The notes under the pieces: generated by a model | Told to the model about the DNA's origin: nothing | The model's input: the letters and a program-made list of their open reading frames with translations, nothing else | Databases searched by the model: none | Assembly: GCA_904420505.1 (NCBI GenBank) | Contig: CAJFVS010000007.1 | Span: 1-36,115, forward strand | Direction of reading: 5' to 3' | Source of the DNA: Candidatus Alloruminococcus vanvlietii | Lineage (GTDB): Bacteria > Bacillota > Clostridia > Oscillospirales > Ruminococcaceae | Length of the DNA stretch: 36,115 nucleotides | Shown here: piece after piece, positions 3,559 through 35,990 of the stretch | How positions within the stretch are numbered: the stretch's first letter is position 1 | Layout of the letters: every line of letters begins with the position of its first letter | Translations under genes and position numbers: made by a program

Positions 3559-4554
3559 CTGAATATCTATGACATCGCTTCCAAAGCAAACGTTTCCATT
3601 GCAACCGTTTCCAGGGTTTTAAACAACAAAGGCTCTGTAAGCGAAAAAACCCGCCAGCGGGTGTTAAGCGTAATGGACGAAAACAACTACACCCCCAACA
3701 TGTTTGCCCGCAGCCTGGGGCTGAACACCATGAAAATGGTGGGCGTGCTGTGCTCGGATATTTCCGACATCTTTTATGCGCGTTCCATCTCGGTGATAGA
3801 AAAACGCCTGCGCGCCGAAGGGTTCGACATGATTCTTTGCTGCACGGGGGTCAACATCACCGATAAGAAAAAGTATATGGAGCTTTTGCTGCAAAAGCGG
3901 GTGGACGCCATGATTTTAATCGGTTCCATCTTTAAAGAGCAAAACGACAACTCCCATATCGAGGAAGCCGCCAGGCGCGTGCCGCTGGTGATTATCAACA
4001 GCTACCTGGACCTTCCCAACACCTAGTGCGTGTACTGCGATGAAGAAAACGCCGCGTACGAAGCCGTGAGCTTGATGATTAAAGACGGTCGCAAGCGCAT
4101 CGGGTATGTGTGCGGGCCGCAAACGCCCAACGCTTTGTTAAAAGAGGCGGGTTTCCGCCGCGCGCTGGCGGACAACAACCTGCCGGCCATACCGGAATTG
4201 ATTGTGCACGGGCGCCCCACCTTGGAAGACGCCTATGCGTATGTCAACCAGCTGGTGATTGACAAAGTGAAGTTTGACGCCTTTTTTATGGCCGAAGACA
4301 TCATCGCGGTGGGCGCCATCAAGACGTTAAGGCACCACAAAATCAAAATCCCGGACGATGTGTGCTTAATCGGCTTTAACAATTCCATCTACTCGCAGTG
4401 CTGCAGCCCCACCATTACCACAGTGGACAACTTGATTGAAACCTGCTCGACCACGGCGGTAAACATTTTATTGGATTTATTTGAAGGTAAGCAGGCCCCT
4501 ACCAGGGTGGCGCTTAATTCCAACCTGGTGGTGCGCGAAACCTTTACCGTGTAA
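3559..4554 (+). pseudogene. LacI-family hexuronate regulator, interrupted by in-frame TAG
   Basis: Read through its TAG, the frame encodes about 331 residues, the usual LacI-family length. The N-terminus has the LacI helix-turn-helix (IYDIASKANVSIATVSRVL) and is followed by a periplasmic-binding-like effector domain. There is no ATG, GTG or TTG at the expected start: the family's usual opening appears as CTG-AAT-ATC-TAT with AGGAAGGGG ten bases upstream. Codon 156 is TAG (4024-4026), where the flanking LPNT...CVYCDEE suggests a tyrosine codon was hit by one substitution. TAG ends ppk in this window, so it is not recoded. A downstream GTG at 4030 could only give the C-terminal half (174 aa). 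Most likely a decaying pseudogene; a sequencing error or suppression are alternatives. Confidence 0.75.
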
Positions 4555-20655: not shown

Positions 20656-20910
20656 ATGCTGGATTTGCGTGAAATCGCCTATTATGCAGCCAATAACCCT
20701 TTTTACGGCAGTCAAGGCAAGCTGCGGTTTTTGTTAAAGCCCAATTTGGAAGAAAACACCCTGTTGGTTTACACCTGGCAGGAGGACGTCTGCTTTGATT
20801 TGGCAAAAGGCCCTTCCTGCAAAAGCTTCCCCCTTACCCAGCAGGGGCTTGAGGAAGCCAATGCTTATCTAACCGCCTGCGCACAAGCGCTTGGGCAGGG
20901 CCAATGGTAA
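20656..20910 (+). CDS. Small protein of unknown function (84 aa)
   Basis: I do not recognise the family. The product is soluble, with no membrane helix or signal peptide. It has LREIAYYAANNPFYGSQGKLRFLL near the start, a beta-rich middle (TLLVYTWQEDVCFDL) and a helical end (QQGLEEANAYLTACAQAL). Expression is well supported by its own promoter, AAGGAGG eight bases before the ATG at 20656, and a terminator 10 bp after the stop. It is monocistronic and is the last chromosomal gene before the phage-derived cassette. Confidence 0.75.
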   Translation: MLDLREIAYYAANNPFYGSQGKLRFLLKPNLEENTLLVYTWQEDVCFDLAKGPSCKSFPLTQQGLEEANAYLTACAQALGQGQW

Positions 20911-20920
20911 AACCTTTTGA

Positions 20921-20957
20921 AAATCCCCCCGGAAGGAACGCTTCCGAGGGGATTTTT
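20921..20957 (+). terminator. Terminator after the 84-aa gene, at the edge of the phage cassette
   Basis: Two-tier hairpin: AAATCCCC/GGGGATTT outer arms and CGGAAG/CTTCCG inner arms (20921-20955), followed by T residues on the plus strand. As its A-rich left flank gives a T run on the minus strand, it may also stop the cassette transcript ending at 20977. Confidence 0.85.
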
Positions 20958-20976
20958 TCATGCCTTTTGGTTTTGT

Positions 20977-21396
20977 TTATTTAATCAAATTGTACAAACG
21001 CAAAGCGTTAAGCAAATCGTTTAAGCGGTTGCCAACATCCGAGATGGTAACCGAACCGGATAGGTTGGGCACGGTAAGCTGTCCGCGCCCAACGCTTCCG
21101 CCAAAAAAGGTCAAATACGTCCCCGCATGCCCCCAAATCGACCAGTTTACCGCATCCGACCTTTTGGGCGGGCCCACTTTGTATTCCACCACATAGGTGT
21201 TCGAATCCCGCAGGATTTTTACCCGGTCCCCCGCGGCAAATACAACGCTTGTGTTGGTTTGGTAATGCTTTTGCGTCGGCTCGGTTTCCCCGTCCAGTAT
21301 CAACGTCACCCCGTCTTCATACACCTGCGCCACCGTGGCAAATTGGGGCGGTTGTGTGTCAAAGGTTTCTTTATCCAATGTTTTGTCTTGCTGCAT
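20977..21396 (-). CDS. Small end protein of the phage cassette
   Basis: 139 aa, not recognised beyond its position. The first half (FATVAQVYEDGVTLILDGETEP, then AAGDRVKILRDSNTYVVEYKVG) looks like the small beta-barrel seen in phage baseplate or tail-tip accessory proteins. The second half ends in a helix (VGNRLNDLLNALRLYNLIK). The ATG at 21396 has AAAGGAGA upstream, and is preferred to an upstream open extension. Last gene of the cassette, right behind the hub-like gene, so probably a baseplate or fibre-tip part. Confidence 0.65.
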   Translation of the reverse strand: MQQDKTLDKETFDTQPPQFATVAQVYEDGVTLILDGETEPTQKHYQTNTSVVFAAGDRVKILRDSNTYVVEYKVGPPKRSDAVNWSIWGHAGTYLTFFGGSVGRGQLTVPNLSGSVTISDVGNRLNDLLNALRLYNLIK

Positions 21397-21410
21397 AGCT
21401 GTCTCCTTTC

Positions 21411-22514
21411 TTACCACAATTGTGTCAGCCTGCGCGCACGGTGAACCATCGCCGCGCCGGCGTGCAGCGGCATTTCCCAAGCGCTTTCCACATATACGCC
21501 CTGGGCGTTGGGATGGTCGATATACAGCACCTCGGCCTCGGAATGCATGGGCATAAGCGGCGTTTGGAAGGTGACAATTTCATACACCTGGCTGTTTTCA
21601 TGGGCAATGCGCTGCACAATGGCGTCCAAAGCCTCTTGGCTTTCCACCATATCCGGCTTGTAAATGGGGGAAACAATCCGCCGGCCGCGCTGCACGGTGG
21701 AAAGCGGCGAGGTGGGGTTGTCGTTTACATAAACGCTTTGCAGCGCCTCGTCGTTTTCCGGATTGGATACCACCGCGATAAACACATTGGGGGTGTTGTA
21801 CAAATCCTGCTCGCATAAAACTTCTGTTCCCAATACGCTTAACTGGCCGCTGGTGTATTGATAGGTGGTTTGCGCGGCCGAAGGGCTTGTGTATTTGCGC
21901 AGGCAGAATATCCCGTCTTCGTCCACGCTAATGCTTTGGAAATTGATTTGCGAAAGCAGCGTGTTTACCACCTGCAGCTTGGATGTGCCAATTTCAAACT
22001 CGCAGTCGCGCGGCAAAACGCTCTGGTTGGAGTCCGCCATCACCTGGTTAAGCCCCGCCGAATACAAAACCGAAGAAACCGCCTGGATATACGGCGTCTG
22101 CGCGGCGATAAACAGCCGGCTGGTTAAGCAGTCCTCCTGCAAAATCACGCTTTGGTCATACGCTTGCACTTCGTAATATACCCGCCCATTGCGCCAAATG
22201 CGCGTGGGGGTGGATAAAACAAACACCCCCAGCGGGAATTGCGCCCAGCCGTCCCCCATCCAAAGGCGCATGGAGGGCTTTACCAGATCGGTCAGCCAGT
22301 TGATGCGCGAATCTTCTTCAATGGTAAAGCGCGCGGTACGTTTGATGTCGGCAAAGCGGTTGAAAAAAATTTGCCCCGTTGCATCCAAACTGCAAACCTT
22401 TGCCCCATCCCGCAGCAAATCAAAGCAAAAATCCACCTTGCGCGCGCCGGTGGGTGCTAGCAGCGCCCGGTTCAATTCCTGCTGGGAATATCCCGCGTTC
22501 AAAGGCCATCTCAT
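21411..22514 (-). CDS. Tail hub/baseplate-like protein (DUF5048-type)
   Basis: 367-aa protein of the type found at the distal tail of Firmicute siphophages. The N-terminal part (RALLAPTGARKVDFCFDLLRDGAKV, FADIKRTARFTIEEDSRINWLTDLVKPSMRLWMGDGWAQFPLGVFVLSTPT) resembles the first domains of gp27/gp44-like hub proteins, and the middle (LQVVNTLLSQINFQSISVDEDGIFCLRKY) is the familiar hub segment. It lacks any C-terminal peptidase or lytic domain. ATG at 22514 overlaps the preceding stop and has GAGGTGAG upstream. Assignment is by motif resemblance and gene order. Confidence 0.7.
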   Translation of the reverse strand: MRWPLNAGYSQQELNRALLAPTGARKVDFCFDLLRDGAKVCSLDATGQIFFNRFADIKRTARFTIEEDSRINWLTDLVKPSMRLWMGDGWAQFPLGVFVLSTPTRIWRNGRVYYEVQAYDQSVILQEDCLTSRLFIAAQTPYIQAVSSVLYSAGLNQVMADSNQSVLPRDCEFEIGTSKLQVVNTLLSQINFQSISVDEDGIFCLRKYTSPSAAQTTYQYTSGQLSVLGTEVLCEQDLYNTPNVFIAVVSNPENDEALQSVYVNDNPTSPLSTVQRGRRIVSPIYKPDMVESQEALDAIVQRIAHENSQVYEIVTFQTPLMPMHSEAEVLYIDHPNAQGVYVESAWEMPLHAGAAMVHRARRLTQLW

Positions 22515-24586
22515 ACGCTCACCTCATCCTCTGCCTGCGGGGAATATTCCACCTGGCACAATTTTAGCACAAATTGCGTATACCGGGCGGTTTGTTCGCT
22601 TTGCACCTGGGTAACGCAGCCAAACAGGCAGTTGCCGGCGCAGTCGCGGTAACACAGCGTGCCGCCTTGCGCAATTAGCTGCCAAAATTTCTGCAAAAGC
22701 TCGTCTTCCAGCAAGGCAAAGCGTATGGTCGCCTCTATCTTGCTCTGCCCGTTTTGCTCAAAAATAGGCAAACGCCTGCCCATGCACCAAATGGCTTCGC
22801 CGGTTAACGTTTCCGTGCGGTTTAAAGCAAAGGGGGATTCCTGCCGAAGGCATAGTTTTAGCATGTCCCCCAGGTTTTCCACCGGTGCCAGGGTGGCGTT
22901 TTGCACGCAAACGGTAAATTCCACCGGCAGGGAAACGGCAAAGCAGTCCTGGGAGGTAACCGCGCGCAGGGAAAAGGAATGGGCGCCTACACAGCCAAAA
23001 TCGGTAAAGGACTGGGCTGCAAAACGGTGGATGGGCTTGCCGTCGCGCAAAAGGTAAATTTTCTCGTTTACCGGCCAGGAAGCCAGGGTGGCCTTTACCC
23101 CTCCTTCCACCCCTTCCAGCACAAATTCCGGCACCGCCGGCTTGGGCGTCTCAAGGGCAAGCGGGTAGCCGCCCCATTCGCTTACCAGCGAAAATTCGTT
23201 TTGTATGCGCACCTGCACCGAATATTCCCCGTCCGGCAAAAAGGCGCTCACCTTGTGTTCCTTTTGGGTGCCGGCCAACGGCCCCGCATGGTACACTTCC
23301 CTTTCGCCCTGCAAAATGCGCACTTCATACCCCAGCTGCCCCTGGCTTTGCCAGGCAATGGTTGGCCTGCCGCTTTGGCTTACCCCGGTGATGCTGGGCG
23401 CCTGGGGGGCTGCGCGCACCACGATGGAGGCAGGGGTGCAGTATTCCCCGGGCACAGAATCAATGTTGTAGGTGCGCACCCGCCACCAGCCCTGCCCTGC
23501 CTGCAAAGTGCCGGCGGCTGCGGTGTAGCTGGTCTGGGGGCCGGTTTGGCTTGCCAAAGGGGTAAATTCTTCCCCGTCCTGGCTGTATTCCAAATCAAAC
23601 CCGGCGGGGGTGGTGTTGGTGGCAATCACATGCCGCCAGGTAAAAACCGTGGGCGATAACGCATCCACAAACGCATTCACAGGGCTTACGGCCACCGCCT
23701 GCGAAACAGCGTCCTGGGTGGAAAGTTCCATCCACGCGCTGGGCGCGCTTGCCACCCCGTCGTCGCTTTCTAAAACAAGCTGCCATTCAAAGCTTTTGGC
23801 CGCCGGGAAGGTGTTGGCAGGCACTTCTACATAGCTTTGCGCGCCGTCTACTACGATTTCATTGACCGTTTCGCTTCCCTTTTCTCTCCAGCGGAAGGTA
23901 GCTTTTTTCTGGGTGATTTTCTCCTGCACGCCAGAAGAATTGTACCCAAACCGCCAGCGGAAGGTTTGGGGCTTGGTGCGGTCTACAAACCCCGAAGTCG
24001 GCGATAAATCCGATATGGTAGGCACTACGTCTTCATAGGTGTGCAAAAGGTAGGGCGGGTTTGCCCCCGTATGCGAGTTTGTGGTGATGGACGCCGATAC
24101 ATTGTACTGGGTATTGGCATATATATTCACCGAACACCCGCAGGTAGGGGATGCGAACACCGTATAGGTATCCCCTTGCTGGCTGGGGCTGCATTGGTTG
24201 GCATGGATATATTGCCCGTTTGTAAAATGGGGGATGCTTATGGAAGCGTCGATTGGCCCGGTGCCAGCTACAAAGCTGGAAGACCCCCAGCTTAACCAGT
24301 AGGTAAAGGTGCCGCCTGGCAGCGCGCCCGAACCCGAATAGCTTTTATCGGCTATGTAAATATACACCTGGGTATTCAATTTGCGTTTTTTGCCGTATTG
24401 GGTGGTGCCCACCGGGAACAGCATGCGCAGGTTGCGCCCCGATGTGGGCGGGTAATACCCGTCGTTTGCGTTAAACGAATACCCTACCGAGCTTGTCAAA
24501 GTATCCCCATCGATTCTCACCCCGCCATTTACAAAGTCTTCCAGGTATGTTTCGTTGCTGTATATTTTCTCTTCATAAGTTGCCAT
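22511..24586 (-). CDS. Large Fn3-repeat adhesin/tail fibre with Dit-like C-terminus
   Basis: 691 aa, the largest protein of the cassette. Residues 1-190 resemble a DNRLRE-type beta-sandwich (GYSFNANDGYYPPTSGRNLRMLF, QVYIYIADKSYSGSGALPGG). Residues of about 195-575 hold four Ig/fibronectin-III-like repeats, each starting with a PSI/PTISD-type strand. The last 115 residues (GDMLKLCLRQESPFALNRTE to FVLKLCQVEYSP) look like a distal-tail anchoring domain. I infer it binds a cell-surface glycan or protein and anchors directly to the particle. Start at the ATG at 24586 with GGAGGGAT upstream; an in-frame codon at 24610 has no such signal. Confidence 0.7.
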   Translation of the reverse strand: MATYEEKIYSNETYLEDFVNGGVRIDGDTLTSSVGYSFNANDGYYPPTSGRNLRMLFPVGTTQYGKKRKLNTQVYIYIADKSYSGSGALPGGTFTYWLSWGSSSFVAGTGPIDASISIPHFTNGQYIHANQCSPSQQGDTYTVFASPTCGCSVNIYANTQYNVSASITTNSHTGANPPYLLHTYEDVVPTISDLSPTSGFVDRTKPQTFRWRFGYNSSGVQEKITQKKATFRWREKGSETVNEIVVDGAQSYVEVPANTFPAAKSFEWQLVLESDDGVASAPSAWMELSTQDAVSQAVAVSPVNAFVDALSPTVFTWRHVIATNTTPAGFDLEYSQDGEEFTPLASQTGPQTSYTAAAGTLQAGQGWWRVRTYNIDSVPGEYCTPASIVVRAAPQAPSITGVSQSGRPTIAWQSQGQLGYEVRILQGEREVYHAGPLAGTQKEHKVSAFLPDGEYSVQVRIQNEFSLVSEWGGYPLALETPKPAVPEFVLEGVEGGVKATLASWPVNEKIYLLRDGKPIHRFAAQSFTDFGCVGAHSFSLRAVTSQDCFAVSLPVEFTVCVQNATLAPVENLGDMLKLCLRQESPFALNRTETLTGEAIWCMGRRLPIFEQNGQSKIEATIRFALLEDELLQKFWQLIAQGGTLCYRDCAGNCLFGCVTQVQSEQTARYTQFVLKLCQVEYSPQAEDEVSV

Positions 24587-24603
24587 TGGCTTATCCCTCC
24601 TCT

Positions 24604-25470
24604 CTACCAAATTTCATCGGTTTGCGCAGGGGAAAAAGCGTATTCTTTTTCCCCCTGTTCGTTTTCGGCGTAAGAAAATGTCCCGTTTTCTTCGCTAGTT
24701 AGCCACAGCGTAATGGCAAACGGGCAAACGCCGCTGCTGTCGGTGCTTTGCTGCCAATTGGTATCGGCGCTGGCGCTGTAACATACCGCCTGCGCGCAAG
24801 AATTTTCCCACGGCCCGCATACCTGCACCAGCGCAAGGCTGGTGTGTGCCTGCGCGCTTTTTTGTATGGCCTGCAAAGCGCTGTCATCCGTTGCAACGCC
24901 GGTGATATTCGCTTGTTTTTTGTCCGTTTGCATCACCCGCTGCAATTGGGCGTACATGTCGTAAAAGCAGGTTTTGGCAGGCGCGTTTTCCACCTGCAGC
25001 CGTTCAATGCCCCTGCCAAGGGGTTTGTACCCTTCGCCGGTGGAAACAAACCATGCCCCCTCTTTGGACGTTTGGCATTCGTGCAAAACATACAGCTTTA
25101 TTTCCACATCCAGCAGGGCAAACGCACCGTTGTCATCATCCCAGCTCAGCGTGCCCTTTTGCGCCTGGATGGCGGCCGCCTGCCCCTCATCCAGCTGGGG
25201 CAGTGCCTGCGCTTGCTGCACAAACTGCAAAACCTCTTCTATAGCGGTTTGGGCCTGTTTGCGTTCGCTTTCGCTTGCATAATACAAGCGCATATGCACC
25301 ATAAAGCTGTGGCAGGCCAGCCAACCGCCGTTTAAAAAGCGCTTTTGTATCTGCATGCCCGTATAGGTAACCGACGCCCCTTCGCCCTTTACAGGCGTTT
25401 TGGCACAGGCAATTGCCGCAAGCGGGGTACAGCCTGCCAAGTAACTTTGCATAGAATCTATTAGGCTCAT
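24604..25470 (-). CDS. Tail completion plus tail-tube-like protein (probable fusion)
   Basis: 288 aa. The first 135 residues (MSLIDSMQSYLAGCTPLAAIACAK; MQIQKRFLNGGWLACHSFMVHMRLYYASESERKQAQTAIEEVLQFV) look like a phage minor capsid/tail-terminator protein. The remainder starts near residue 145 with YKPLGRGIERLQVENA and reads like an A118-type major tail protein (PLGkGI start, then VTG...LSF-type strands). Those are normally two genes, so I infer a fusion. ATG at 25470 with AAGGAGGGA upstream. No tape-measure gene follows. Confidence in the phage structural role is fair, in the exact identity low. Confidence 0.55.
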   Translation of the reverse strand: MSLIDSMQSYLAGCTPLAAIACAKTPVKGEGASVTYTGMQIQKRFLNGGWLACHSFMVHMRLYYASESERKQAQTAIEEVLQFVQQAQALPQLDEGQAAAIQAQKGTLSWDDDNGAFALLDVEIKLYVLHECQTSKEGAWFVSTGEGYKPLGRGIERLQVENAPAKTCFYDMYAQLQRVMQTDKKQANITGVATDDSALQAIQKSAQAHTSLALVQVCGPWENSCAQAVCYSASADTNWQQSTDSSGVCPFAITLWLTSEENGTFSYAENEQGEKEYAFSPAQTDEIW

Positions 25471-25482
25471 CCAATCCCTCCT

Positions 25483-25884
25483 TTATATGCATGTAATGGC
25501 CATATGCCCCAGCGGGCCCTGGCGCAAATCCTGCACGGCGTTTACCGTGCCGGACACAAGCCCTAACGCATCCAGCTGCGAAACGCTTTGCAAAGCCTGC
25601 GGCCCCTGCCCAACGGCCACAATATCCCCCGGCGCTACGGTGTACTGGGCGGCGTCCTGTCCGTCAAACAATCCGGGTTCACAGTAACGCATGGGGTTAT
25701 CGTTCAAAATGCGCACGCAAAATGCATTGTCGGGCGTGCTGTGCCGCCCCGGAATGGCCACCCGGCGGATGCTGGGCTGGATCCCCACGCTTTGGCTGAC
25801 ACTTACGCCCTTTACCACGCGGCATACATACGCGCCATCCTCTGCCTGGTGGTAAATCGTTGCCTCTTTTGTAAAACCTAGCAT
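25483..25884 (-). CDS. Phage structural protein, DUF6751-like
   Basis: 133 aa. Pattern TIYHQAEDGAYVCRVVKGVSVSQS, then RVAIPGRHSTPDNAFCVRIL, then VAPGDIVAVGQGP matches small siphophage head or tail joining proteins annotated DUF6751. Its biochemical role is not established. ATG at 25884 has AAGGAGGT upstream and overlaps the preceding gene by seven bases. It stands where head-tail joining genes are expected. Confidence 0.6.
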   Translation of the reverse strand: MLGFTKEATIYHQAEDGAYVCRVVKGVSVSQSVGIQPSIRRVAIPGRHSTPDNAFCVRILNDNPMRYCEPGLFDGQDAAQYTVAPGDIVAVGQGPQALQSVSQLDALGLVSGTVNAVQDLRQGPLGHMAITCI

Positions 25885-26240
25885 GAAAACGACCTCCTTA
25901 TCCCGCGGAACAGCAAGCCTGTCCCGCGCAAATAAGGGTTAACCGCATCGTATATACGTATGCTTTTGCTTTGCATACTGGGGCTTTGGTCGCCGTAGGT
26001 AACGCTTAACCCGTCGTTTTTTTCGCTTTTTACCCCCTGCGGGGCGTCTTCCAGCTCTTTTAAAGCGTCTACGCAGGCGCAAAACGCCAGCTGTACCTGC
26101 TGCCTATCGGTGTAATCTTTGGCGCGGTCCAATGTCAACGCATCCAGTTCATAGTCTGCTTTGGGGCCGTACTTTAAAAATTCTTCCTCGCTTAATGCGC
26201 CGTGATAGGTGTTTTGATAAAATGTATAGGTTGCGTACAA
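25878..26240 (-). CDS. Head-tail connector-like protein
   Basis: 120 aa. YATYTFYQNTYHGALSEEEFLKYGPKADYELDALTLDRAKDY followed by a helical run (QQVQLAFCACVDALKELEDA) and IRIYDAVNPYLRGTGLLFRGI matches the small helical gp6/gp15-type connectors that sit beneath the portal. The TTG at 26240 is chosen as start because AAAGGGGG lies seven bases upstream; an in-frame TTG at 26258 would put that motif inside the gene. It follows a terminator-like hairpin after the capsid gene. Confidence 0.68.
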   Translation of the reverse strand: MYATYTFYQNTYHGALSEEEFLKYGPKADYELDALTLDRAKDYTDRQQVQLAFCACVDALKELEDAPQGVKSEKNDGLSVTYGDQSPSMQSKSIRIYDAVNPYLRGTGLLFRGIRRSFSC

Positions 26241-26261
26241 TGGTTTTCCCCCTTTCAAAAT

Positions 26262-26292
26262 AAAAAGCGGAGGAGCTTTTCCCCCGCTTTTT
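26262..26292 (-). terminator. Terminator or attenuator after the capsid gene
   Basis: AAAAAGCGG (26262-26270) with CCGCTTTTT (26284-26292), T-rich on both flanks. Lying inside the cassette, it probably reduces transcription of the downstream tail genes relative to capsid. The 170 bp between it and the capsid stop hold no gene. Confidence 0.7.
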
Positions 26293-26462
26293 TCATACCC
26301 TGCCGCTTATACAGCCTTTGGGGGCAATGTCCCGTTTGAATTGCCCGGCGCCAGCGGCCCAAACCCGCTTTCCCGCTTTTTAGGGGAGCGCGCAATAAAC
26401 GGGGTTTTTCAAATTCCCTCGTGGAACAAATCCTGCTGCCCGGCAGGCCATGCTGTTTTTGC

Positions 26463-27332
26463 TTATGCGGCGTAGCTTACATAAATGCCCGCCAGCTTGT
26501 TTTCCATCACGTCGGCCAGGCCGTAGGAACGGAAAAAGAACATCCAGCTGTCGTTTACCTGGTTTTCCTGCGGGGTGACGATTTTATTAACCGTATGTTT
26601 GGGGTATTGGATAACCGCCGGTTTGTGCACAATCATAAAGTGGATCGCCTTGGCGTCCGAAGCCGGGGCAAACCCACCATCGGTTTCGCCGTCGCTTGTG
26701 CCGTCTTTCAAGTCAATCTTGGTGTAAAAACGGCTTTTGGGCACGCGGATAACCGCTGCAAAAGAATCAAAAATATCCTTGTTTACCGTGATATCCACCT
26801 GCATGGCTTTGTTGTAGTCGGCCTGGGAAATGAACAGGTAGCGGTCGGTTTCGGGCACTTCGTCGTCATCCATTTTGGCGCTGGCCTGCACAATGGCGTC
26901 AATGACATCCTCGCCGGTGGTATAGGTGCCGGTGATGCTGCTTACACCCGCTTTGGAAGCATAGCAGGCAAAACGGAACGCGTCGATTTCGGGTGCGGTT
27001 TTGGTGCGGATAAACTCAGAAGAAAGCTTGCCAAACGCAACGCCGGCGGTTTCTTCGTTGTCCATCGCATCGATGGAAAATTTGCGGCCGCGGTCGTAGT
27101 TAAAGGTAACGGTCTCATTGGTCAAGGTCACATCGCCCGCCACATAGCCGCCGTTGCGCGAATAATCGGCCAGGCCGTCCATTGTAATTTTGGGAATCAC
27201 CAATTCGTTTGCATTGGCCCCCGCGCCCATCAATTCGGTGTCGCCGTCGAGCACCGAGGTCAAAGAACTTTGTTTGTACACTTCATCCAGCAAGCCGATG
27301 TAGCGTTTGAATAAAGTAATGGAATTTGCCAT
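26463..27332 (-). CDS. Major capsid protein
   Basis: 289 aa, a HK97-fold-type major capsid protein of the small class without a delta domain. It opens ANSITLFKRYIGLLDEVYKQSSLTSVLDG, continues KITMDGLADYSRNGGYVAGDVTLTNETVTFNYDRGRKFSIDAMDNEE, has the middle segment LFISQADYNKAM, and ends with FRSYGLADVMENKLAGIYVSYAA; all typical of Firmicute siphophage capsids. It follows the scaffold gene directly. Acidic composition and lack of cysteine-rich or membrane parts fit. It should form the shell with the scaffold and portal. Confidence 0.85.
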   Translation of the reverse strand: MANSITLFKRYIGLLDEVYKQSSLTSVLDGDTELMGAGANANELVIPKITMDGLADYSRNGGYVAGDVTLTNETVTFNYDRGRKFSIDAMDNEETAGVAFGKLSSEFIRTKTAPEIDAFRFACYASKAGVSSITGTYTTGEDVIDAIVQASAKMDDDEVPETDRYLFISQADYNKAMQVDITVNKDIFDSFAAVIRVPKSRFYTKIDLKDGTSDGETDGGFAPASDAKAIHFMIVHKPAVIQYPKHTVNKIVTPQENQVNDSWMFFFRSYGLADVMENKLAGIYVSYAA

Positions 27333-27357
27333 GTTTTTTTACTCCTTTTTTGTTTTT

Positions 27358-27867
27358 TTACAGTCCCATCGCGCGGCGCGCGGCCATGTCGGCCATGCTG
27401 GCGCTCGCGCTTTGGCTCATGGTGCAAAACTGCGGGTATTGGCCGTCGGGCGCTTCAAACAGGTACGGGCATTCCTCTTTGATGCGCTTTAGCTGCTCGT
27501 CTAACCCGGTCAGCTTGCCCTCCTCCAGGCGGATAAGCGATATATCCAGCAAAGCCATCACCGCTTTTGGGCTGCGCACCTGCGCGTCTTTGAGCGCTTG
27601 CCCCAGCGCATAGTCGCGCGCAAGCTGTTCTTTTTGCGCATACAGCGCCCCGTTTTCTTGCTCCAGGCGCAAAAGCTCTTGTTGCAGTTGGGCAAGGGTT
27701 TCCCCCTCCCCGTTTTCCAGCGCCTGCTGTGCGGTTTGCAGCTTCTTTTTCAGCGCGTTTACCTCGTTTTCGTGCTTGTAGCTTTTGCGAAAACGCTTTA
27801 AAAACGCCTCCTGGTTTTCTTTAGGCAGCTTTGCGCCAAATTCTTCTAATAATTCTAAAATATCCAT
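27358..27867 (-). CDS. Phage scaffolding protein (GP20 family)
   Basis: 169 aa, predominantly a long coiled coil from residue 30 to 95 (HENEVNALKKKLQTAQQALENGEGETLAQLQQELLRLEQE region) as in GP20-type scaffolds, with a C-terminal capsid-interaction segment (SPKAVMALLDISLIRLEEGKLTGLDEQLKRIKE). It directs capsid assembly and is lost at maturation. I place the start at the second ATG (27867), four bases after GGAGGG; the first ATG at 27879 has no ribosome binding site. Confidence 0.85.
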   Translation of the reverse strand: MDILELLEEFGAKLPKENQEAFLKRFRKSYKHENEVNALKKKLQTAQQALENGEGETLAQLQQELLRLEQENGALYAQKEQLARDYALGQALKDAQVRSPKAVMALLDISLIRLEEGKLTGLDEQLKRIKEECPYLFEAPDGQYPQFCTMSQSASASMADMAARRAMGL

Positions 27868-27886
27868 AAAACCCTCCATACATGTT

Positions 27887-29257
27887 TTATACAGGTTGTC
27901 CCTGTGAGGGGTGCCCGGCGTTTGTATCGTCTGTGTGCAGGTCGGTCAAATACCCCTTTGCCGTTTCTTCATCCACGTTAAAGTACCATGCCAGTAGCTT
28001 TTGCGGGCGCATCCCCATCTCCACCATGGCCTTTAAGCGGTCAAATTCGCTTTGGGTGTCCTCAAATACGCTGTCGCCAAACTGGATGGACGCTTTATAC
28101 TCCCCAACAGGGGCCAGATGGTACAAAGTTGCCAGCGCATCCAGCGCCTGTAACAATTCTTCAATGGCAGCACCGGCCGCGCGCTGAATGTCGGTGATGG
28201 TGTAATAGGTGGTGCGGTCCTCGCTTATCACCTGGGTGGCGGTTAAAGCCCTGCGGGCAGTATCAAACGAAAACGTACCCGAGGATACCCCCACCTGCAT
28301 TTCCAGCAGGCGCAGCAATTGGTTTAAACCGTTTTGGTATTCTTCCTGGCGGATGTGCGGGGTATAATCGGTGAACATTTGTTCTTGCCCCTGCAAATTC
28401 AGCTTGATGTATTCATCCGCGTCCTCCAGCATGATTTTGCCGGTTTTTAGGTCGCGGCGCACACAAAGCTCGTCCACAATTTTTTTGCGCTTGCCGCTTT
28501 TAAATTCCCATAGATAATCCTCGTACAGCTTGTCAATGCCGTCTAGCGTGTCCATGCACCTAGCAAACAGCGATACCGGCAACGGGCTTGCAGGGTCAAT
28601 ATGGTTTACCCCCGGCATGCGAAAACATCCAAACAGCGGGCGCAAAATGCCCTGCATCACGGTTTCTTCCTGCAATTGGCCCCAGTCGTCCACCACGCTT
28701 AAATTCACCCTGGCGCCCAAAACGCCGCCGCTGTTTACAAACGCTTCGTTGGTTACCACATACTCGTTGTTTTGCAGCGTGTGGCGCTCTAAGCGGGTGT
28801 AGCAAATGCCGTTTGTTTCACGGGTGTCGGTAAAAAAGGCGTCGGTCACCATGCCGGTTACATCGTATGCAAGCGGGAAAAACCGCTCGGCGCTGACAAG
28901 CTCAATGCCCACCTGCTTATTTTGCACCACCGGCTTTAGCACCACCTGCCCGCCTATGCACATAAGCTGCACCGCTTCGTGCATGCGCGGAAGCACCTGG
29001 CGCTGCAAAATGGCTTGCAGATACTGCGCCCTCTCGCCCCCCTGCACCGCAACTTGCAGCTCGGCGTTGGTTAAATGCGCAATGTGCGCGCTTACCACCG
29101 CCATCAAATGCAGCGAATCCTCCTCGCTGCAAAAACGGGTAAACCACATTTTTATCTGCTCGCGCATGGTGTTGGATACCTGCGGCTGCAAAAAATACGG
29201 CTTGATGGTAAGCTTAGGCGGCTTTTGCGCCAACCGCTTTTGTTTCAAATTGAACAT
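27887..29257 (-). CDS. Phage portal protein (SPP1 gp6/A118-like)
   Basis: 456 aa, the length of this portal class. It shows a helical opening (NTMREQIKMWFTRFCSEED), a middle beta segment (IELVSAERFFPLAYDVTGMVTDAFFTDTRE), and a stem/crown part with GVSSGTFSFDTARRALTATQVISEDRTTYYTITDIQ, a very typical portal motif. The portal ring is the DNA entry point and docks the terminase. AAAGGAGG lies 12 bases upstream of the ATG at 29257. Position between terminase and scaffold is canonical. Confidence 0.85.
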   Translation of the reverse strand: MFNLKQKRLAQKPPKLTIKPYFLQPQVSNTMREQIKMWFTRFCSEEDSLHLMAVVSAHIAHLTNAELQVAVQGGERAQYLQAILQRQVLPRMHEAVQLMCIGGQVVLKPVVQNKQVGIELVSAERFFPLAYDVTGMVTDAFFTDTRETNGICYTRLERHTLQNNEYVVTNEAFVNSGGVLGARVNLSVVDDWGQLQEETVMQGILRPLFGCFRMPGVNHIDPASPLPVSLFARCMDTLDGIDKLYEDYLWEFKSGKRKKIVDELCVRRDLKTGKIMLEDADEYIKLNLQGQEQMFTDYTPHIRQEEYQNGLNQLLRLLEMQVGVSSGTFSFDTARRALTATQVISEDRTTYYTITDIQRAAGAAIEELLQALDALATLYHLAPVGEYKASIQFGDSVFEDTQSEFDRLKAMVEMGMRPQKLLAWYFNVDEETAKGYLTDLHTDDTNAGHPSQGQPV

Positions 29258-29288
29258 TTTTTCTGAAAACCTCCTTTATACGCCGCTT

Positions 29289-30512
29289 CTACAACGGCAG
29301 AATGCGGCGCAATACACTTTGGCAAAAATACCGCATGTCGTCCATGGCATGGTCGTTTTCCTTTAAGGGCACATCGCCCTGGGCGTTTGTGTCCCAGCTG
29401 TAAAGGGCAATTTCCCGCAAAAAGTCCTTGCAGCTTTTATGGATTTGCAAGCGTCTGTTTTGCAGATATCCCATCACGCAGCGGATACCGTCAAGCACGC
29501 GGTTATCGCCCTTGCGCACCATAAATTCCCCATGCCGGCGGATGCACTCGATAAACGACGCGGCCGAAGGGTCTACCACCACATACGCAATTTTGCGCCC
29601 TTTTGCCAAAACGCAAAGCTGCTGGTAATATTCCTCGTCGGTCAAGCTGTGCCCGCATGCGCGCGAATCGTAGTAATATTCGCCAATGCGCACCGCACGG
29701 CTTTGGCCCACGCTCCACAACCCGGCTGAAAAAGGGTTTCGCGTGCCGTAATCCACCGAGATAAAATATTCCCCCTCCGGCTTATCCTCGCACACCATGC
29801 TTTTGTCAAACATCGGGTAAATAAGCCCCTGCGCCGCCACCCACTGCCCCAGCACAAACCGCCTGTAAAACACCCCGCTGTACAGCGTTTGGTAGCGTTT
29901 TTTTATCTGTTCGCTCAAAGATGGGTTGTCCTCCATGGTAAAGTGCAGGTACAGCACCTTTTTTTGCGCCCGGGCGGCGGGCTGTACCCATTCTTTGTAA
30001 AACCAGTGCGCCGGGCTTTGCGGGTTGCAGCTAAACCAGAATTTGCTCTTTTCCAGCGAAGCCCTTGCCAGCGCCTGCCATACAAAGCTCTGGGGCAAAA
30101 TCGCCGCTTCGTCAAACAGCACCCCGCCCAGCGTGATGCCCTGTATGCGCGCCGCCGCCCCTTCGTCCTTGCCGCCAAATAAATAAAAGCGGTTTTCCGC
30201 CTTTGCCCCTTTTACCAATAAGCACCGGCGGGATGCAATGTATTTTGCCTTGTAGCGGGTGTTTTTTTCCAGCGTTTTCAGCAGTGGGTAAACCACGTTT
30301 CGCTCGGCGCTTTGCAGTGTTTTGCCGCAAATGGCAAACGCGGTGTCGTCAAATGTGGCCATGGCCCATAACACAAACGAAAGCGATAAACACAGCGTTT
30401 TGCCCGAGCGCACCGCCCCGTCGCATAGAATCCCTTCGTGCTGGCGCATATCCGGGTGCATCCACCAGGTAAGCACCCTAAGCTGCTTTGGGCTAAACGA
30501 GGTAATCTCCAT
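29289..30512 (-). CDS. Terminase large subunit
   Basis: 407-aa packaging motor. ATPase domain: Walker A GAVRSGKT at residues 32-39 and Walker B VLFDEA at 131-136. A C-terminal RNase H-like nuclease follows: FISVDYGTRNPFSAGLW, then VVDPSAASFI, then the late acidic pair in NDHAMDDMRYF. These are the features of PBSX/SPP1-type large terminases, and no catalytic residue seems lost. ATG at 30512 has AAAGGGAGGA upstream; an upstream open extension to 30626 overlaps the small subunit and is rejected. Overlaps the small terminase gene by 20 bp. Confidence 0.9.
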   Translation of the reverse strand: MEITSFSPKQLRVLTWWMHPDMRQHEGILCDGAVRSGKTLCLSLSFVLWAMATFDDTAFAICGKTLQSAERNVVYPLLKTLEKNTRYKAKYIASRRCLLVKGAKAENRFYLFGGKDEGAAARIQGITLGGVLFDEAAILPQSFVWQALARASLEKSKFWFSCNPQSPAHWFYKEWVQPAARAQKKVLYLHFTMEDNPSLSEQIKKRYQTLYSGVFYRRFVLGQWVAAQGLIYPMFDKSMVCEDKPEGEYFISVDYGTRNPFSAGLWSVGQSRAVRIGEYYYDSRACGHSLTDEEYYQQLCVLAKGRKIAYVVVDPSAASFIECIRRHGEFMVRKGDNRVLDGIRCVMGYLQNRRLQIHKSCKDFLREIALYSWDTNAQGDVPLKENDHAMDDMRYFCQSVLRRILPL

Positions 30513-30939
30513 TTTCTTCCTCCCTTTGCCCGTCGTTTTCCTGACCATCCTTGCCTTCGCCGCCCATTGGCTTTTGCCAAATGCTGGCGCAGGCGTTGTC
30601 CAGTGCTTGAATGAGCGCTTCGTCACCCGGCTCTTCTTGCTGCGGCTGCGGTTTTTCCCGCCAGATATTGGGCAGGCGGTTTTTCAGCCAGAACACGCAT
30701 GCGGTGGTGTTGCCTTCCAGCGCCTTTTGCAGCAGGGCCTCTTCCACTAAGCAGCATTCCATCTCGCGCCCTTGCTCCAGCGCCTTTTGCAGCGCTTCGC
30801 TTTTGCGCACCCTGCGCAAAAAAACGGTTTTGCTTACCCCCAGCGCTTTGGCAATAGCCTCGTCGTCCAGCCCGCGGCGCGCATAAGCGCATAAGCGTTT
30901 TGCCAGGGTTTCATCGGCCTCATCCAGTTGTTTTGCCAT
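30493..30939 (-). CDS. Terminase small subunit
   Basis: 148 aa. A helix-turn-helix (residues 20-55: CAYARRGLDDEAIAKALGVSKTVFLRRVRKSEAL) for packaging-site recognition is followed by a helical oligomerisation part (ECCLVEEALLQKALEGNTTACVFWLKNRLPNIWRE), and an acidic Gln-rich tail. The phrase TTACVFWLKNR is highly typical of phage small terminases. ATG at 30939 has AAGGAGGAG upstream. It starts 48 bp after the sigma-like regulator gene. Confidence 0.85.
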   Translation of the reverse strand: MAKQLDEADETLAKRLCAYARRGLDDEAIAKALGVSKTVFLRRVRKSEALQKALEQGREMECCLVEEALLQKALEGNTTACVFWLKNRLPNIWREKPQPQQEEPGDEALIQALDNACASIWQKPMGGEGKDGQENDGQREEENGDYLV

Positions 30940-30987
30940 GTTTCTCCTCCTTTCAAGGGCATACTACACCCAACGCGCCCTGACATG

Positions 30988-31374
30988 CTATGCCCACATC
31001 GTATCCACAGCCTTTTTGTGCAGCCGGTAAATATGCCGCCAGGAATACTGCATCTGTTCGGCCAACGCTTCAAAGGTAAGCCCCCCTATATACCGCAGAT
31101 ACAACACCTGCTGCAAAACCGGGTCGCGCACGGTTTGTATGGCCTTGAGCACCTGAATGCGCGCCTGCACCAACCCTTCCACCTGCTTGCGCAGCGATTG
31201 TTCATAATGGGAATATTCTTCTTCCATCCAAGCCAAATCCTTTTGGGCATGCCCGCTTGTACAAAGCCGCTGCCGGTGCTGTTTGCACAAAGCCAGCTGT
31301 GCGGCGGTCTGGTCTACCAACGCGTCCGCCTTTTGGTAGGATTGTAAAAATTCCACCTTCTGTTGATAGGTCAC
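30988..31374 (-). CDS. Sigma-70 region-4-like phage regulator (DUF1492/ArpU type)
   Basis: 128 aa. Residues 1-85 form helices, and the C-terminal 45 residues (QTVRDPVLQQVLYLRYIGGLTFEALAEQMQYSWRHIYRLHKKAVD) are a sigma region-4-like helix-turn-helix, as in the DUF1492/ArpU/RinA-type late-gene activators next to terminase genes. It is inferred to turn on the structural genes behind it. The start is the GTG at 31374 with GGAAGGAA upstream. It is first gene of the cassette, immediately downstream of the LexA-type box, so SOS control would reach the structural genes through or with it. Confidence 0.78.
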   Translation of the reverse strand: MTYQQKVEFLQSYQKADALVDQTAAQLALCKQHRQRLCTSGHAQKDLAWMEEEYSHYEQSLRKQVEGLVQARIQVLKAIQTVRDPVLQQVLYLRYIGGLTFEALAEQMQYSWRHIYRLHKKAVDTMWA

Positions 31375-35317: not shown

Positions 35318-35584
35318 TCAGTTATAAATATCTCTTCTGTGGCCGATATTCAAAATTAAAATGACAATTTTTTCATCTTGAATATCTGCAATTAAACGGT
35401 AATCCCCAACACGGTAACGCCATTGTCCGCTTCGGTTTGCCGTCAAGCCTTTTCCGTGCCGGCGAGGGTCATCGGTTCCAACCAGATTCTTTTCAATCCA
35501 CGAAAGCAACAGCGTCCGGGTATATTTATCCATTTTCTTAAGCTGCTTTACCGCCTGTTCTGTATATTCCACTTCCCACGCCAT
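35318..35584 (-). CDS. RelE/ParE family toxin
   Basis: 88 aa, the usual size. Sequence WEVEYTEQAVKQLKKMDKYTRTLLLSWIEKNL, then RHGKGLTANRSGQWRYRVGDYRLIADIQDEKIVILILNIGHRRDIYN matches RelE/YafQ/ParE toxins, with the basic core and conserved GxWRYRVGDYR and GHR-x-x-Y end. RelE members cut mRNA on the ribosome and ParE members poison gyrase; the two cannot be told apart here. The ATG at 35584 shares one base with the antitoxin TGA (TGATG); a TTG one codon upstream is also possible. Translationally coupled to its antitoxin. Confidence 0.88.
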   Translation of the reverse strand: MAWEVEYTEQAVKQLKKMDKYTRTLLLSWIEKNLVGTDDPRRHGKGLTANRSGQWRYRVGDYRLIADIQDEKIVILILNIGHRRDIYN

Positions 35585-35814
35585 CAATTATCGTCCTCCA
35601 TCGAGAACATTTTCATAACCTCTGCGTGGCTGTAGGTAACGGGGTTTTTCTTGTATTCTTCCATCGCCTGGTTATAAAGCTGCAAATCGTGTTCGTCTTC
35701 TATTCTGTCCATTACCGTTTCCCGGATGAAATCGGAAACGCTTTTGTTATACATCTGTGCATAAGCTTTTACCAGCTTATCGTCATTATCGCTAAAACGC
35801 ACGCTAATAGTCAT
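35584..35814 (-). CDS. RHH-type antitoxin (DUF6290/RelB-like)
   Basis: 76 aa. The N-terminal ribbon-helix-helix (MTISVRFSDNDDKLVKAYAQMYNKSVSDFIRETVMDRI) binds DNA; the C-terminal helix (LYNQAMEEYKKNPVTYSHAEVMKMF) should wrap the toxin. The ATG at 35814 has AAGGAAG upstream; the much longer open frame reaching 35961 has no signal and crosses the promoter. It neutralises the toxin and represses the operon through the tandem repeat in its promoter. Confidence 0.85.
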   Translation of the reverse strand: MTISVRFSDNDDKLVKAYAQMYNKSVSDFIRETVMDRIEDEHDLQLYNQAMEEYKKNPVTYSHAEVMKMFSMEDDN

Positions 35815-35836
35815 AATCACACTTCCTTTCATCCTT

Positions 35837-35865
35837 ATTGTATTACATTGTATTACAATTGTCAA
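35837..35865 (-). promoter_or_regulatory. Toxin-antitoxin promoter with tandem operator
   Basis: Minus-strand -35 TTGACA (35865-35860), 17-bp spacer, -10 TACAAT (35842-35837). The spacer and -10 consist of two exact tandem 10-bp repeats, ATTGTATTAC on the plus strand (35837-35846, 35847-35856), a typical RHH antitoxin operator. Confidence 0.8.
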
Positions 35866-35943
35866 TAGTATATTTAATAAATAATAAAAAGCATTCATTA
35901 GGTAGACTTTTCCCAACAAAGTACATATAATAAAGATAACAGA

Positions 35944-35990
35944 ACCCGACACGCCTCTCAACGATGCGAACCACGTCGGGTCGTTTAATT
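35944..35990 (+). terminator. Hairpin upstream of the toxin-antitoxin module
   Basis: ACCCGAC with GTCGGGT arms around a loop starting ACGCCTCTCA, then CGTTTAATTTT. Its loop motif repeats that of the terminator after the toxin. It may be a terminator or leader structure of the mobile element. Confidence 0.45.

Follow-up and report, generated by a model that had tools for sequence, protein, structure and literature searches.

Whether a compact phage-derived cassette with packaging, head and tail-tip genes is a prophage that has yet to decay, an element dependent on a helper or a particle kept by its host is the question raised by the window, the 36 kb contig (36,115 nucleotides) analysed here, which belongs to an assembly of 1.83 Mb that is 95.5% complete. 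GTAs outside Alphaproteobacteria are, to our knowledge, barely known, and the first GTA from the gut appeared in print in January 2026 and concerned a single genus. By means of ORF calls and Pfam/PHROGs profile matches, twelve intact minus-strand genes were found between 31374 and 20977, in the order regulator, TerS, TerL, portal, scaffold, capsid, adaptor, g08, g09, g10, hub and end protein (Table 1). It is proposed here, with a probability of about 60%, that in this cassette the late operon of a siphovirus has been domesticated into a GTA-like element.

The original prediction located the cassette correctly, with its strand and compactness, and its gene identities held with some corrections, but the number of genes is twelve instead of ten. 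All 12 frames were open, as had been claimed, and the packaging set was complete, and both features argue for the GTA-like reading. The genes are tightly spaced, and the good ribosome binding sites originally announced were recovered for most of them, with a clear SD at the first start or an SD-supported internal start (for TerL, the ATG at 30512, which gives 407 aa), the exception being g07, in which a simple pattern detected no SD. With regard to single genes, the "DUF6751-like" label of g08 corresponded to a sub-threshold Pfam match (E 0.038) and gave way to a PHROGs match, the supposed adhesin g10 proved to be an fn3-repeat protein beside the hub gene, the "tail-like" g09 was sharpened by modelling into a terminator and tail-tube fusion, and the hub-like g11 was also modelled as a hub of the gp27/VgrG type. 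Codon usage was host-like (mean score of 0.168 in the cassette and 0.180 in the flanking host genes), which likewise favours the GTA-like reading. The cassette is flanked by ordinary host genes, with ppx-ppk at one end and, at the other, genes for an 84-aa protein and a nitrilase-like protein. The 84-aa gene adjoins both the window and the genus g73 cassettes, at opposite sides, and was rejected as a cassette marker, being a small gene that occurs throughout the family next to varying neighbours. Elsewhere in the window, a LacI-type sugar-binding domain split across two ORFs (121 and 174 aa; 3661-4554), which adjoins hexuronate genes, looks like a broken regulator, and a RelE-like toxin and its DUF6290 partner (35318-35961) probably form a toxin-antitoxin pair.

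Table 1. Cassette genes and adjacent features, in window coordinates.
Feature	Coordinates	Strand	Length	Assignment and basis
g01 regulator	30988..31374	-	128 aa	sigma-70 region-4-like late activator, phrog_36
g02 terminase small subunit (TerS)	30493..30939	-	148 aa	phrog_309; HTH matches weak
g03 terminase large subunit (TerL)	29289..30626	-		Terminase_6N; ATP-binding motif GAVRSGKT
g04 portal	27887..29257	-	456 aa	SPP1 gp6-type, phrog_533
g05 scaffold	27358..27879	-	173 aa	Phage_scaffold
g06 major capsid protein	26463..27332	-	289 aa	phrog_422
g07 head-tail adaptor	25878..26258	-		phrog_541; start likely TTG near 26240
g08	25483..25884	-	133 aa	phrog_3366 (3.5e-6); probable head-tail stopper/closure, by position
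g09, one chain	24604..25470	-	288 aa	predicted: residues 1-131 tail terminator/completion fold, 133-280 tail tube fold
g10 fn3-repeat tail-tip protein	22511..24586	-	691 aa from SD-backed ATG	phrog_37549 (1.9e-17)
g11 baseplate hub	21411..22514	-	367 aa	gp27/Mu gp44/VgrG fold, Z 24 (model)
g12 end protein	20977..21396	-	139 aa from SD-backed ATG	phrog_12764/26792
Strong stem-loop, T tracts on both strands	20925..20963			z -4.2; cassette 3' end, before 84-aa gene; probable bidirectional terminator separating the two
84-aa gene	20656..20910	+	84 aa	small chromosomal protein, family-wide; tie to cassette uncertain

The tape measure protein (TMP) had been described as absent rather than missed, and this was borne out. 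The g09 stop at 24604 lies 18-20 bases upstream of the SD-backed g10 ATG at 24586, so that no space is left for a TMP between these genes, and tblastn comparison of TMP C-termini with the window gave nothing significant. The lack of integrase, holin and lysin was also confirmed when the larger window ORFs were compared with Pfam/PHROGs, a search that small holins with no family match could escape. Replication genes were not found in the scanned window ORFs, and no att-like repeats above chance were detected at the cassette ends (the longest direct repeat was 11 bp; shuffles reached 13 bp). The TMP, lysis cassette and integrase that mark an intact siphovirus prophage were not found in the window ORFs scanned, and the cassette is what is expected of a GTA, a chromosomal cluster of head, packaging and tail genes free of replication and integration genes. 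That no lysis genes were located counts against the GTA-like reading, under which they would lie elsewhere in the genome. The same inventory bears on the helper-dependent satellite contemplated in the original prediction, that is, a phage satellite with its own capsid that would borrow tail and lysis functions from a helper. The presence of packaging and capsid genes without TMP and lysis genes would fit such an element, but the features of capsid-forming (PICI-like) satellites, namely an integrase, att sites and a regulation/replication module of their own, were not found in the scanned window ORFs. Moreover, the cassette encodes its own tail tip, the genome has a single portal and a single capsid of the cassette's families, and inheritance in genera g73 and g12 is chromosomal and syntenic, which makes a satellite very improbable.

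Homologues of g10 and g11 were sought in IMG/VR contigs and in as many as 397 genomes from the window's family. Seventeen loci (six bacterial and eleven from IMG/VR) carried a TMP directly before the g10 homologue, with 539-806 aa where complete and, in one case, 307 aa cut by the contig end. Fifteen loci were TMP-free, namely the window, five g73 species, three species of genus g12, G062 (genus g63), G318 (genus g128) and four IMG/VR contigs, and the existence of similar TMP-free cassettes in these four further genera of the window's family argues for the GTA-like reading. So does the remnant found in G127 (genus g128), in which, as in one similar IMG/VR contig, a 124-aa protein corresponds to the TMP C-terminus; two further IMG/VR contigs end before the TMP position. 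At L043:14873-15247, a 124-aa TMP C-terminus stands alone before the fn3 gene, and two small genes persist between this remnant and the tail tube gene. It was also observed that the IMG/VR entries L346-L349 are g73-type cassettes listed as viral contigs, the relatives of which occupy conserved chromosomal loci. Close relatives of the portal, g09 and the hub were not found in IMG/VR, nor were those of the window portal in the genome contigs searched.

The main evidence that such cassettes are kept comes from genera g73 and g12. The capsid was present in 5 of the 5 g73 species searched, and the cassette lay beside the same host genes in all four species with contigs reaching the flanks (G072, G172, G296 and G242), sharing the upstream flank in 4/4 and the downstream flank in 3/4, with measured flank genes 80-95% identical to those of G296; the contig of the fifth species, G322, was too short for the locus to be placed. 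The genus g12 cassette was found in 3/3 species, at a locus common to G152 and G227 that G011 did not share within the stretch compared. In g73, dN/dS was 0.03-0.08 for the major capsid protein, 0.06-0.11 for TerL, 0.11-0.14 for the portal and 0.16-0.22 for the fusion protein, and elsewhere mostly below 0.3, individual small genes reaching 0.56, and genus g12 pairs gave 0.12-0.53; these ratios are approximate because many dS values exceed 1. No premature stops were found in g73 cassette genes, and dS in g73, for example 1.3-1.8 for TerL, was near that of flanking host genes (0.9-1.6). Judged from these sequences, the g73 pattern is that of a vertically inherited and used element. Vertical descent at one conserved site, with purifying selection, as expected of a GTA, was thus seen in g73 (4 of 5 species placed) and genus g12 (2 of 3 placed), and the locus conservation together with the low g73 dN/dS argues for the GTA-like reading. 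The dN/dS comparison of terminase, portal and capsid recommended in the original prediction returned purifying selection for g73; the window genus is represented by one genome.

The site of the window copy differs from that of the g73 cassettes. The arrangement expected in relatives (84-aa gene, cassette, ppx at the same locus) did not recur, given that 0 of 29 ppx loci of relatives had a cassette gene within 1.5 kb and that g73 carries ppx on contigs other than that of the cassette. The hub tree grouped the window with TMP-bearing phages (97/94), apart from g73, the fn3 tree was weakly resolved around the window-g73 placement, and the TerL families of the two differ. A shared origin of the whole cassette in the window genus (g1) and g73 was thus not supported, and the hub tree, the TerL family and the differing locus indicate that the window cassette is mosaic or was separately domesticated. 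The hub tree, the unlike TerL family and the single-genome genus count against the GTA-like reading, and we can only infer the maintenance of the window's own copy because the ppx locus of relatives is without a cassette. These observations would suit a prophage trimmed not long ago, in which a G117/G064-like phage would have lost its early, lysis and TMP genes by deletion and kept a late operon that has yet to decay: the window hub is nearest to those of TMP-bearing phages, the window capsid is 63-67% identical to those of intact phages, and relatives lack the cassette at this locus. Such an origin is nevertheless judged unlikely, since translational spacing is clean at the TMP deletion point, every frame is intact, the cassette has its own 5' intergenic region and terminator besides its host-like codon usage, and other genera keep the same compaction under selection.

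With regard to the tail, a tail-completion profile spans g09 residues 2-126, a search seeded with the g73 protein aligned across residues 1-273, and in the g73 one-chain proteins the latter half fits a tail-tube profile. The AlphaFold2 model of g09 (12-sequence alignment, mean pLDDT 79.9, pTM 0.54) comprises two domains, of which residues 1-131 align to tail terminators (best Z 11.8) and residues 133-280 to tail tube proteins (best Z 11.4, with an rmsd of about 7 Å); Foldseek E-values were weak (best 2.4e-3). The terminator and tube matches at Z 10-12, RcGTA chains among them, favour the GTA-like reading. One-chain proteins of this type, with 270-374 aa (in G172 the called ORF has 440 aa), were restricted to TMP-free loci (the window, five g73 and four IMG/VR contigs), and terminator and tube were separate genes in 3 of 3 TMP-bearing loci with both parts recognised. 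Since the TMP-free cassettes of genera g63 and g12 also keep terminator and tube as separate genes, fusion is one solution and not a requirement for TMP loss. Among phage records, the window query found no fused g09-like protein, and the g73 query gave only a weak partial match (E 0.7) in two records of one phage.

On this basis, regulator g01 would turn on the operon, scaffold, capsid and portal would form the head, TerS/TerL would load it with DNA, presumably of the host, and the adaptor, g08 and the terminator domain of g09 would seal the neck. The tube, fn3 and hub proteins would then add a very short tail, the length of which would be set structurally because there is no TMP: each g09 terminator subunit bears its own tube domain, and therefore one ring, and no more, would be assembled. 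Tail length may thus be fixed by the predicted terminator-tube fusion, and the product would be a stub-tailed GTA-like particle. Heads with stub tails could also serve as a PBSX-like killing particle that adsorbs to and damages related cells, its packaged DNA being undelivered. The hub, fn3 and end proteins could putatively bind cells, and the same option was left open by the authors of FpGTA, the Faecalibacterium system (PMC12946183), but it would presumably be wasteful to keep a whole terminase and a portal for DNA that served no purpose, and this alternative is considered improbable. The GTA-like or very short-tailed particle of the original prediction is the best supported reading, mainly by virtue of the genus-wide, single-locus, selected cassettes of g73 and g12. 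It is more tentatively suggested, at rather less than even odds, that siphovirus late operons became GTA-like by TMP deletion on separate occasions in several genera of one Oscillospirales family, and that the g1/g73 type, with terminator and tube in one protein, has a ruler-free one-ring tail. The mini-TMP is an intermediate state, and the terminator-tube fusion provides a testable answer to how tails are built without a length ruler.

Among known systems, the Rhodobacter capsulatus RcGTA resembles the window cassette in being a siphovirus-like cluster, and the g09 domains align to its neck/tail chains (6tba_4A, Z 11.6; 6toa_G, Z 10.5), as the g11 hub does to 6tba_8A (Z 12.0). RcGTA, however, still has a TMP, its tail is longer, its terminator and tube are separate proteins, and its host belongs to another phylum. 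The capsid of Eggerthella phage PMBT5 is 63% identical to the window capsid over its full length, but PMBT5 is a complete 30.9 kb phage, whereas the window has late head and tail-tip genes only. PBSX of Bacillus subtilis is a chromosomal phage-like element, with a longer gene set and a full tail. It has been cited as a GTA-like system of Gram-positives (PMC12946183).

The nearest known system to the window cassette, compared by description only, is FpGTA, a 10.5 kb ten-ORF operon present in 12/12 Faecalibacterium genomes examined, the 40 nm particles of which have no identifiable tail and contain about 9 kb of DNA (PMC12946183). This published operon argues for the GTA-like reading. Both are late operons of about 10 kb from the order Oscillospirales, with TerS, TerL, portal, scaffold, capsid and few further phage genes and without replication or integration genes; FpGTA is genus-wide and lacks a visible tail. 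Other compact cassettes were also observed. In genera g216 and g227 (family f13), five that were read (L334-L338) are podovirus-like, with nine genes including a P22-type portal, a phrog_422 capsid and TerL; they may be FpGTA-like. Capsid matches occurred in 25/25 g216 and 10/12 g227 species, a few being ordinary phage capsids, and flanks were conserved within the genus in 2/2 pairs compared. Another type (L165-L168, L185-L205) occurs in several species of g119 and relatives, including uncultured Oscillospiraceae/Clostridia MAGs, in the order TerL, portal, 149 aa, capsid, 149, 107, 114, 504 and 435 aa.

The authors of FpGTA regarded it as most likely podovirus-like and placed its baseplate, fibre and lysis functions in a second operon, and its TerS was said to have no obvious DNA-binding domain (PMC12946183). 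The window TerS, with its weak HTH matches, differs in this respect, which counts against the GTA-like reading. Moreover, the podovirus-like tail set of FpGTA, with baseplate genes outside operon I, does not recur in the window, where an SPP1-type portal, a siphovirus terminator/tube fusion and a hub are encoded in one operon. The siphovirus-derived, TMP-free type differs from FpGTA and spans genera of one bacterial family.
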